Shown here piece by piece: positions 754 through 2,776 of a stretch of 64,000 bases of DNA (its first letter is position 1; each line of letters starts with the position of its first letter). Origin of the DNA: Thermoplasmata archaeon (GTDB lineage: Archaea; Thermoplasmatota; Thermoplasmata; Lutacidiplasmatales; UBA184); contig JAKBSJ010000001.1 of assembly GCA_021844945.1 (NCBI GenBank), positions 62,001 to 126,000 on the forward strand, given 5' to 3'. The translations under genes were made by a program, and so were the position numbers. The notes under the pieces are model-generated. The model made no database searches. It saw nothing but the letters and a program-made list of their open reading frames with translations, and was not told the origin of the DNA.

Positions 754-1532
754 GCGGAACACCACCGGCCAGCCGCGACGCCGCGCGAGGATACGACCGA
801 GAGATCGGCCGGCTCAAGTCCGATGCCGTCGAGATGGGACACTGGGCACTGGCGATGGTCCACGATGGGTGGACCGCGTTCCAGCGGTCCGATCTGAAGC
901 TGGCGCAAGCCGTGCTGGATCGGGATACGCGCCTATCCAAGTACGAGGAGGACATCGAGCACGAGACCATCTCGTTCCTTCTCCTCCGTAAACCGGCGGG
1001 AGGCGATCTGCGGACTGCGGTCGGCCTTCTCAAAGCGACGACGTACCTGGATCGCATCGGCCGACTCGGATTCGACATCGCGCGGATCACGACCCCCGAG
1101 GTCCGATCGGATCTCCCCGAGCTGAGAGACCACTTACAGAACATGGACATCCTCGCGGAGTCCCAAGTGGCTCTCGTTCTCGACGCGCTCGAGCACGACA
1201 AGATCGAAGTCGCCCGCTCGCTGTTCGACCGCGACGACGAGATCGACCGGATGCACCGTGAGACCAATCGCATTGCGGTCCGCCAGCTCCTGTTCGACCC
1301 TCTTTCGGGCCAGCGCACGAGCAACGAGATCCTGATCGCGCGGCACTTCGAGCGGATCGCGGACAACGCCTGCCGCATCGCCGAGAAGGTGATCTATGGC
1401 CTCACCGGACAACGGCCCAGCGAGTACCTGCCCCGCCACCCGTACCTTCCGTACGTGCTCGAGCCGCCTCCCGGGGACGGCGGCCGTGGGGAGGGGGGAT
1501 CGCCGCCGATGCCTCCCGATCGATCGGCTTAG
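750..1532 (+). CDS. phoU: PhoU-like phosphate uptake regulator
   Basis: The 260-residue, all-helical protein has the two three-helix PhoU repeats. The first runs through about residue 110 (with YLDRIGRLGFDIARI), the second from about 125 to 225 with the hallmark ERIADNACRIAEKVIY, whose acidic residues bind metal in this family. PhoU damps phosphate import by acting on the Pst transporter and linked signalling. The ATG overlaps the pstB stop by four bases, so the two are translationally coupled. The last 25 residues are Pro/Gly-rich and probably disordered. The stop shares the tetranucleotide TTAG with the converging phosphatase gene. Confidence 0.9.
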   Translation: MSGTPPASRDAARGYDREIGRLKSDAVEMGHWALAMVHDGWTAFQRSDLKLAQAVLDRDTRLSKYEEDIEHETISFLLLRKPAGGDLRTAVGLLKATTYLDRIGRLGFDIARITTPEVRSDLPELRDHLQNMDILAESQVALVLDALEHDKIEVARSLFDRDDEIDRMHRETNRIAVRQLLFDPLSGQRTSNEILIARHFERIADNACRIAEKVIYGLTGQRPSEYLPRHPYLPYVLEPPPGDGGRGEGGSPPMPPDRSA

Positions 1533-2473
1533 GCGCGATCCCAGGGTGCGTTGTTGCGCGCGGACGGTTTCCCTACCGGCGCTGCCGGCACGTCCTCCAG
1601 GGCGAGATCCACGACCGACGAGACTGCGCGGTCGAGCGGGAGCCGAGCCAGGATCACCCCTCCATAGCGCTGGTAGTAGCGCGTGGTGTGAAGCGTGAGA
1701 CAGCGGCCATCGTAGATCGGGCGTCGCGTCAAGTCCGGGTCGTGTCCGCGAACCAACACCGTGAGGCCCGCCTTCGCGAGGAAGTCGAGGGTATCCGACT
1801 CATGGAAAGGGGGGGCCACTCCGCGGCGGTTGCGGCTCGCCGCGCAGTCCGCCCATGCGATCTCGGCGAGGCGAGCCCGATCCGTCGGGTCGATGGCCCT
1901 CGTCCAAGGCTCCGGCCAGGGAGGTCGCGGGAAGCCGGCGTGCGCGAGGTACGCGCCGGACCGGCTCGTGGCGGCGATCGGGCCTCGGTTCAGGAGACGG
2001 GAAATCCGTTCGGCGCGAAGCGGAGAAGGACCCCAGGCGGCCTCCACTTCGTCCTCGAAGGTACGGGGAGCGACCGGCAGGGAGTTCGTCGTCTCGTGGT
2101 TGCCGCGGATTAGAACGACGCGCGGAGCGTACGTCGCGGCGACCTGGAGCAAGTAGAGTGCGTTAAGAACCGAGCCGTTCGGACAATCGGCCGGGGTCCG
2201 ATCGACGTAGTCCCCCAACCCGACCAGCGCCGTCGACGAGCCGGTGAGGAAGGTTCGGACCACACTCATCGTACTGCGCCAATCCCCGTGCGTGTCCCCG
2301 AAGAGGATCGCCTCTCTCGCGCCCGTGTCCACGAGATCGACCCAGGCGCGTGTCGTCGGGACCGTGGACTCCAGTTGGTCGAGGAGCCGGTCCACCTCGG
2401 CCGCGGGAAGCCGTTGGAGCTGCGTGGGGTCGAGCACGATGGGCCGGGGCGTGGCCGCGGAGGCAGCGGCCAT
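1529..2473 (-). CDS. PPP-family (Ser/Thr protein phosphatase-like) metallophosphoesterase
   Basis: The 314-residue protein has the ordered metal-binding motifs of PPP phosphatases: GDTHGDW near residue 57, GDYVDR near 86, RGNHET near 121, then a LAHAGF motif and VRGHDPD. These ligate a two-metal centre that hydrolyses phosphate esters. The set is closer to eukaryote-like protein phosphatases than to generic calcineurin-like enzymes, but the true substrate cannot be read from sequence. It converges on phoU with a four-base overlap. The ATG at 2473 gives a plausible N terminus. The two tRNA genes lie upstream on the same strand. Confidence 0.8.
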   Translation of the reverse strand: MAAASAATPRPIVLDPTQLQRLPAAEVDRLLDQLESTVPTTRAWVDLVDTGAREAILFGDTHGDWRSTMSVVRTFLTGSSTALVGLGDYVDRTPADCPNGSVLNALYLLQVAATYAPRVVLIRGNHETTNSLPVAPRTFEDEVEAAWGPSPLRAERISRLLNRGPIAATSRSGAYLAHAGFPRPPWPEPWTRAIDPTDRARLAEIAWADCAASRNRRGVAPPFHESDTLDFLAKAGLTVLVRGHDPDLTRRPIYDGRCLTLHTTRYYQRYGGVILARLPLDRAVSSVVDLALEDVPAAPVGKPSARNNAPWDRA

Positions 2474-2505
2474 GCGCTAGCTCCGGGTGGATGCGGGGGG
2501 CCGGA

Positions 2506-2543
2506 ATTTCCGGCTCGAGGGATGGGAGCCGTCCGTCGGGCCG
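2506..2543 (-). other. Predicted intron in the T loop of tRNA-Leu(UAG)
   Basis: The 5' half of the T arm (GCCGGTTCAAA) and its 3' half (TCCGGC) are separated by 38 nt. The T stem acts as outer helix, TTC/GAA as core (one A-G mismatch at its end), with bulges AAC and ATT and an inner GGC/GCC helix. It is less perfect than the other two motifs, but removal gives an exact seven-base T loop. Confidence 0.65.
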
Positions 2544-2591
2544 TTTGAACCGGCGTATGCCCTAGGCAACAGGGTCCTAAGCCCTGCCTCG

Positions 2592-2618
2592 AAGGCCCCG
2601 GACCGGCCGCGGTCCGGT
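2592..2618 (-). other. Predicted intron in the D arm of tRNA-Leu(UAG)
   Basis: The insert folds as a textbook bulge-helix-bulge: outer stem CTC/GAG, four-base core helix GGCC/GGCC, three-base bulges AAA and TTC on opposite strands, and an intron hairpin CCGGACC/GGTCCGG. Cleavage after the second base of each bulge removes 27 nt and leaves GGCCAA joined to CGAG. This is read from sequence; splicing is inferred. Confidence 0.72.
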
Positions 2619-2669
2619 TTGGCCGAGCTGGAGCACCCCCGCATCGTGAATTCTCGCTGTCCCGTAGAG

Positions 2670-2776
2670 TAGCCCCGGCAGGAATTTCGGTCCGCGGTGA
2701 CGGTAGCGCGCGCGGCGTTCGAACCTGCGTCGCGAGATCCAGAGTCTCGCATGATTGGCCACTACACTACGGGGCT
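2670..2776 (-). tRNA. tRNA-Gln(CUG) with a T-loop intron
   Basis: The minus strand gives acceptor AGCCCCG/CGGGGCT with discriminator A, D arm GTG/CAT, and anticodon arm CGAGA-CTCTGGA-TCTCG, anticodon CTG. The gene is 107 nt; 34 of these (about 2684-2717) interrupt the T loop. Removing them gives T stem GCAGG/CCTGC and the consensus loop TTCGAAT, for a 73-nt tRNA. A TATA-like TTATGAA (about 2801-2808, minus strand) sits roughly 28 nt before the 5' end and probably drives both this gene and tRNA-Leu. Confidence 0.85.
2684..2717 (-). other. Predicted intron in the T loop of tRNA-Gln(CUG)
   Basis: A clear bulge-helix-bulge can be drawn: outer stem GCAGG/CCTGC, core helix TTCG/CGAA, bulges AAC and ATT, and inner helix GCCGCG/CGCGG-C with one bulged A. 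Cutting after the second base of each bulge removes 34 nt at position 59/60. This is the same position, with the same bulge sequences, as in the neighbouring tRNA-Leu. Confidence 0.75.

Follow-up and report, generated by a model that had tools for sequence, protein, structure and literature searches.

Gene structure at the locus

Two adjoining tRNA genes are found near the start of the window, by which we mean the whole 64,000-nucleotide stretch of DNA that was analysed. One encodes a class II tRNA-Leu(UAG) and is split by two inserts, in the D arm and in the T loop. Both inserts had been proposed in a preliminary description of this DNA, made by a model from the letters and a list of open reading frames; its coordinates and insert lengths turned out to be exact to the base, for a class II cloverleaf with anticodon UAG on the minus strand. 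The other gene, tRNA-Gln(CUG), was absent from that description, and carries a T-loop intron at the same site. The features are collected in Table 1, where the intron position numbers (21/22 and 59/60) have been assigned by hand.

Table 1. tRNA genes and introns at the locus, and short T-loop inserts in a genome of the same order
Feature	Position in the window, or loci	Strand	Structure	Evidence
tRNA-Leu(UAG) gene, class II, two introns	2492..2642	-	exons 2619-2642, 2544-2591, 2492-2505	ARAGORN after removal of both inserts
D-arm intron of tRNA-Leu(UAG), 27 nt, position 21/22	2592..2618	-	bulge-helix-bulge	fold, motif scan, intron-less allele in G023
T-loop intron of tRNA-Leu(UAG), 38 nt, position 59/60	2506..2543	-		removal test, covariation, model R1
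tRNA-Gln(CUG) gene, one T-loop intron	2670..2776	-	exons 2718-2776, 2670-2683	removal test
T-loop intron of tRNA-Gln(CUG), 34 nt, position 59/60	2684..2717	-	4-bp core UUCG/CGAA, T stem as outer helix	
Inserts of 13-14 nt in genome G038	L144, L153, L157, L160, L161, L162			4/6 give tRNA: Leu UAG, Trp, Arg UCG, one unreadable anticodon

Standard tools do not see these genes as they are. The tRNA-Leu(UAG) gene is missing from the listings of both ARAGORN (five tRNAs in the window) and Rfam (four). In the tRNA-Leu stretch ARAGORN reports nothing on the raw DNA or when a single insert is removed, and a tRNA-Leu(tag) when both are. The tRNA-Gln gene is mis-ended by ARAGORN as 2702-2777, its true 3' part lying beyond the 34-nt insert, and is not listed by Rfam at gathering score. 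ARAGORN also accepts removals slid by several bases at these loci and does not, therefore, fix the cuts, so that the exact junctions are given by the bulge-helix-bulge (BHB) rule, to which an intron-less allele in genome G023 adds evidence in the case of the D arm only. The preliminary description had considered the case of another complete tRNA-Leu(UAG) elsewhere; none was found in the host assembly, where the other leucine tRNAs are those with anticodons CAA, GAG, CAG and UAA. Directly downstream of the tRNA-Leu gene, an open reading frame (1529-2473, minus strand) contains a GDTHGDW...RGNHE pattern, which we take to be metallophosphatase-like.

Bulge-helix-bulge motifs and covariation

The D-arm insert forms the BHB motif that had been described, with a GGCC/GGCC core, bulges AAA and TTC, and an inner stem CCGGACC/GGTCCGG. 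The CTC directly 5' of the core pairs moreover with the GAG behind the TTC bulge, which yields a strict hBHBh' motif, and the minimum-energy fold of the tRNA-Leu precursor reproduces this helix with its long inner stem. In the T loop of the same tRNA, the GAA of the intron stands opposite U54-U55-C56, the core is made of U54-A, U55-A and C56-G followed by an A57-G mismatch, and the T stem serves as the outer helix. Two 3-nt bulges and a 4-bp helix are present in the Leu D arm and in the Gln T loop; the Leu T loop has three base pairs and the mismatch instead of the full 4-bp core.

Such motifs are frequent by chance in DNA of this composition. Both strands of the GC-rich window contain 25 BHB motifs of the same strictness, compared with 12-25 in six Markov controls, and the motif count was thus rejected as evidence. 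Compared with shuffled versions, the Leu precursor has only a slight advantage in folding (z -2.07) and the Gln precursor none (z -0.93), since 35 of its 200 shuffles equal or surpass it. What goes beyond chance is the location within tRNAs, the conservation and covariation, the intron-less allele of G023, and the recovery of a tRNA only when both inserts are removed.

Covariation could be analysed for both Leu introns. The D-arm alignment (A3) comprises the 30 D-arm copies, out of 37, that are 46 nt long, and thus neither copies of any other length nor G023, which has no intron there. In its 29 distinct rows, 92.4% of the cells are paired, versus 32-53% when the partners are slid, and 52 cells are changed on both sides, versus 20.0 ± 3.3 in shuffles that ignore the relatedness of the rows (0/500). 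The T-loop alignment (A4; 24 of 37 copies, those of 52 nt, giving 24 rows) has 89.9% of its cells paired and 24 double changes, versus 11.1 ± 2.3 in shuffles of the same kind (0/500). When base pairs are counted instead of cells, those with a change on both sides (seven in the D arm, five in the Leu T loop) lie within the shuffled range (107/500 and 131/500, respectively). Pairing is kept across species in both Leu introns. For tRNA-Gln, the alignment (A5) includes 36 of the 37 copies, leaving out L090, where U54 faces U (the fragment L106 was not among the scanned copies). All 33 distinct rows show complete pairing of the T-loop core, which hardly varies, so that the covariation test tells nothing there.

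Conservation within the host genus

A DNA search with the Gln-Leu pair gave a match in 38 of the 41 genomes of the host genus, the host included, and the full pair in 36; no full pair was found in the drafts G004, G017, G020, G030 and G034. Alignment across the genus reveals almost invariant exons and diverging introns. Among the aligned copies, 37 extend into the Leu D arm, and the D-arm intron is present in 36 of them. The exception is G023 (L092), whose tRNA-Leu lacks the D-arm intron, reading GGCCAACGAGG, and keeps the T-loop intron. This sequence is the predicted junction, GGCCAA joined to CGAGG, as it would result if each bulge were cut behind its second nucleotide.

Introns in the tRNA genes of the genus

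The two genes of the window belong to a larger set. A total of 43 tRNA genes were identified in genome G029, which is estimated to be 100% complete. Introns occur in 20 of these 43, and are non-canonical in 16 of the 20: 14 genes have a T-loop intron, 2 a D-arm intron only and 4 a canonical intron only, the remaining 23 being intron-less. The reference tRNA set comprises 46 isoacceptors; in G029 no gene was recognized for Ile GAU or for two of the Pro isoacceptors. G029, G018 and G001 each have 14 T-loop introns at position 59/60, in the same isoacceptors (Gln CUG, Leu UAG, Glu CUC, Ser CGA/GGA/GCU, His, Asn, Gly UCC, Arg UCU/UCG, Ala GGC, Asp and Lys UUU), and the host genome has 11 tRNA genes with an insert at this site.

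A second two-intron tRNA is provided by the tRNA-Lys(UUU) of G029 (L321), in which a D-arm and a T-loop intron were recognized by the removal test. The same two introns are seen by eye in G018 (L325); in G001 (L338) the tRNA is recovered by T-loop removal alone, and the D-arm intron seems absent. In several genomes of the genus, the D arm is also interrupted by an intron in the initiator tRNA-Met and in tRNA-Arg(GCG) (L023, L308, L342; L315, L332, L343). Insert removal restores a standard tRNA for Leu, Gln, Lys, initiator Met and Arg GCG (the last two in one copy each), as well as for other isoacceptors; the removal scan also produces spurious removals in ordinary tRNAs.

The design of the T-loop introns was analysed on 53 examples from four genomes (14, 14, 14 and 11). 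As these were hand-picked, inserts ending in the expected pattern are favoured at the positions facing U54-C56, the partner of R57 being free of this bias. The nucleotide opposite G57 is C in 19 of 20 cases; of the 33 introns with A57, 30 have G at this place and 2 have U. In tRNA-Asn and tRNA-Gly(UCC), R57 and its partner change together between genomes. The core is fully paired in 18/53 introns, made of three base pairs and A57-G in 30/53, and otherwise broken in 5/53, including three of the four tRNA-Asn, in which C56 faces C. A search with model R1, which describes a T arm with its intron, gave matches in all 37 genus genomes that were searched (37/37), 4-15 times each. One of them, in G029 (C6:92433), is likely a false positive, since no tRNA is seen around it. 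Many tRNAs of these archaea are thus missed or mis-ended by ARAGORN and Rfam.

Occurrence beyond the genus

With strict filters, model R1 found no more than one match per genome in 24 class members outside the genus, which suggested an origin of the T-loop introns within the genus only. R1 was trained on the GC-rich introns of the host genus and is therefore biased towards them. At E <= 1, 26 weaker matches appeared in 14 of these 24 genomes; 12 of the 26 gave a tRNA after insert removal and 14 gave none, and the genus-only origin was rejected on the basis of these 12. The recovered cases come from G037, G039, G038, G040, G041 and G054, in the four families f2, f3, f4 and f5. G038, of the same order as the host, has six T-loop inserts at 59/60 that are shorter (Table 1) and devoid of an inner stem.

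A broader model, R2, was trained partly on the weaker R1 matches. At E <= 0.01 it matched 65 of 110 class genomes, 4-13 times in the 12 listed genomes of the host family and 1-4 times in the 53 others. A sample of 145 genomes of the phylum yielded matches in 28, the highest number, 9, being reached in family f29, which lies outside the class; the eight listed genomes of family f19 had none. A total of 63 loci were checked, some of them from the host genus. Taking out a T-arm insert restored a tRNA at 34 of these loci and none at 29; in at least 4 of the 34 recoveries (L362, L370, L385, L392) the removed stretch differed from the modelled one. By these looser surveys, 59/60 introns occur elsewhere in the class and in the phylum. 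In G191, of family f29, an identical 45-nt T-loop intron is present in tRNA-Gly(UCC) and tRNA-Arg(CCU) (L393, L394), whose bodies and flanks differ. This combination points to a transfer of the intron between tRNA genes, which was likely recent.

Splicing endonuclease and ligase

A single frame with two PF01974 repeats was found in the host genome, around C3:144565-145362, with no other PF01974 match at E <= 1. This EndA has the features of an alpha'2 enzyme: its two repeats lie in one chain, which is colinear with the A. fulgidus alpha'2 enzyme (query 46-354 versus chain 20-292), and the active-site residues Tyr, His and Lys, whose role is taken from PMC12397907, can be read from the alignment in the second repeat. 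One loop of the A. fulgidus chimera 3p1y carries an insertion; at this loop, the catalytic repeat of the host enzyme shows none of CSL or ASL size, ASL and CSL being said to occupy analogous positions (PMC12397907). Compared with M. jannaschii 1a79, the host chain is longer here by one residue at most; just upstream, it exceeds A. fulgidus 1r0v by four residues. Most of the 28 class members that were aligned share a longer hairpin in their first repeat, and this feature does not, therefore, set the host genus apart. The single two-repeat frame and the lack of an insertion where 3p1y has one do not correspond to the crenarchaeal (alpha-beta)2 type; nor do two repeats without an insertion of ASL size correspond to the epsilon2 type of ARMAN, with its three fused units and 11-residue ASL.

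The EndA gene is located behind a gene that reads, by eye, like pyrE, and orthologs are present in Thermoplasmata archaeon MAGs, including UBA184 and SubAcS10-22. In a survey of 61 genomes, host included, the PF01974 family was detected in 55, with exactly two matches in 52 of these 55, among them G029. A third match was observed in G011 (C108, L046), as a 111-codon frame at a contig edge, which may be either a fragment or a second gene. One RtcB ligase is encoded in the host genome.

These results modify the interpretation given in the preliminary description. It was right to see two non-canonical introns in a euryarchaeal (Thermoplasmatota) genome, the tRNA genes of which are indeed rich in introns. 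The requirement that it attached to them, a heterotetrameric or ARMAN-like endonuclease, has found no support: the sole enzyme detected is of the two-repeat alpha' type, without a CSL- or ASL-sized insertion.

Proposed splicing mechanism and alternative explanations

Both inserts are very probably archaeal tRNA introns of the BHB type, cut by EndA, likely of the alpha'2 type, and joined by RtcB. In the precursor, each insert and its flanking exons would pair to form a bulge-helix-bulge. The endonuclease would cut each bulge between its second and third nucleotides (GGCCAA^A...GGCCTT^C in the D arm and UUCAAA^C...AAAU^U in the T loop, where ^ is the predicted cut), and ligation by RtcB would then restore the D loop as well as a T loop of 7 nt, UUCAAAU. 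In the T-loop introns, the near-invariant U54 U55 C56 R57 would provide one strand of the core, and the T stem the outer helix. Since the motif borrows the T-loop sequence and the T stem, a single intron design could fit many tRNAs, and about 14 isoacceptors of the host genus keep an intron at exactly 59/60. The enzyme at work would be the single-chain, two-repeat EndA, presumably acting as a homodimer.

A decayed tRNA pseudogene with random insertions, another tRNA doing the work, could in principle explain why ARAGORN and Rfam miss the tRNA-Leu(UAG) gene. This is scarcely credible: the exons are near invariant in 36 genomes, with introns that diverge and yet keep their pairing, no other UAG isoacceptor was found among the leucine tRNAs read in the host assembly, and the same T-loop architecture recurs in 13 other isoacceptors of the genus. 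Another possibility is that the introns are real and are cut by another endonuclease of broad specificity, an alpha-beta heterotetramer or an ARMAN-like enzyme, missing from an assembly that is estimated to be 86.67% complete. Non-canonical introns have been tied to enzymes with a CSL or ASL (PMC12397907, PMC6379350, PMC4033280), and the incomplete pairing of 35 of the 53 T-loop cores would also suit such an enzyme. However, the host has its one two-repeat frame only, at a threshold as loose as E <= 1, and exactly two PF01974 matches are the rule in the survey, including in G029 with its full estimated completeness, which makes this second enzyme improbable.

Cleavage by the two-repeat EndA and joining by RtcB remain the preferred explanation, to which a selective role of the introns may be added. 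In a proposal by Randau and Soell, as told in PMC4090602, tRNA introns break up the target sites of integrases. The T-loop introns could have been kept for this reason, which would complement the splicing explanation and not replace it. The T arm is named, together with the anticodon loop, as an integration site of Sulfolobus viruses (PMC4090602), but 23 of the 43 tRNA genes identified in G029 go without any intron, and we regard this role as rather unlikely.

A conserved T-loop hot spot

Judged from sequence, the putative BHB tRNA introns described here form a conserved T-loop hot spot in Thermoplasmatota. The T loop might even act in this phylum as a universal landing pad: the GRR of a 59/60 intron would pair with the UUC of any tRNA, the introns would pass from one tRNA gene to another, and they would be removed by an alpha'2 enzyme of the narrow type, without specificity loop, the host genus having settled on a fixed set of about 14 isoacceptors. 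This broader reading is tentative, and we give it somewhat less than an even chance; passage between tRNA genes is suggested by the identical introns of G191. If true, it would speak against the rule that specificity loops and unusual introns co-evolve. Non-canonical introns are abundant here, in 16 of the 43 tRNA genes of G029, a member of a lineage where only a loop-less two-repeat enzyme has been found. Either this EndA would be broader than its class, or near-strict BHB motifs could sit anywhere without the need for such loops.

Comparison with known systems

Introns of this kind are known, 59/60 being already among the non-canonical sites of some archaeal genomes (PMC4090602), and 673 non-canonical introns have been counted in 217 archaeal genomes (PMC8450103). 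The host, the scale, the bias for one site and the enzyme context are new as far as we have searched. No paper on T-loop introns in Thermoplasmatota was found in the open-access literature by titles and abstract openings, and the article that places UBA184 in Lutacidiplasmatales does not contain the word "intron" in the main text (PMC9287336). Intron-containing tRNA genes have been estimated at about 8% in Euryarchaeota and 48% in Crenarchaeota, and species with alpha4 or alpha2 enzymes are described as having canonical introns only (PMC4090602). More generally, euryarchaea with alpha4 or alpha'2 enzymes are said to be poor in tRNA introns, all of them at the canonical site, non-canonical ones following the CSL or ASL (PMC4090602, PMC4033280, PMC6379350). 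Broad specificity has been tied to these two loops (PMC12397907), and alpha'2 enzymes have been called narrow (PMC6379350, PMC4090602). Another view is given in PMC8707768, according to which homodimers also cut BHL-like motifs and the Ferroplasma enzyme cuts minimal BHBs; the present case fits this view of homodimers.

The closest parallel in intron content is offered by Thermoproteales, whose tRNAs can bear more than one BHB intron, in the D arm and in the T arm, and where similar introns in different tRNAs have been read as intron transposition (PMC4033280, PMC4090602). The differences are the host, here a member of Thermoplasmatota, the dominance of 59/60, an interrupted set that is identical in G029, G018 and G001, and the two-repeat alpha'-type enzyme in place of an alpha-beta heterotetramer. 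ARMAN-2 is likewise a non-crenarchaeal lineage with non-canonical tRNA introns, but its epsilon2 enzyme has a three-unit chain and an 11-residue ASL (PMC12397907), whereas the host chain has two repeats and no insertion of such a size. In Korarchaeum cryptofilum, a dimeric-type (alpha2) enzyme coexists with non-canonical introns, as in no other archaeon according to PMC4033280 (2014); that enzyme carries a loop of the alpha-beta type (PMC4033280), unlike the one described here. The enzymes of Ferroplasma and Thermoplasma are alpha'2 homodimers of the two-repeat type (PMC8707768), a type to which the host EndA is assigned from its sequence; unlike for the host genus, no set of T-loop introns is described for these two in the accessible part of that source. 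Euryarchaeal tRNAs with more than one intron have already been listed in Methanopyrus and Methanothermobacter, Methanopyrus, which has an alpha-beta type enzyme, being named as an exception (PMC4033280).
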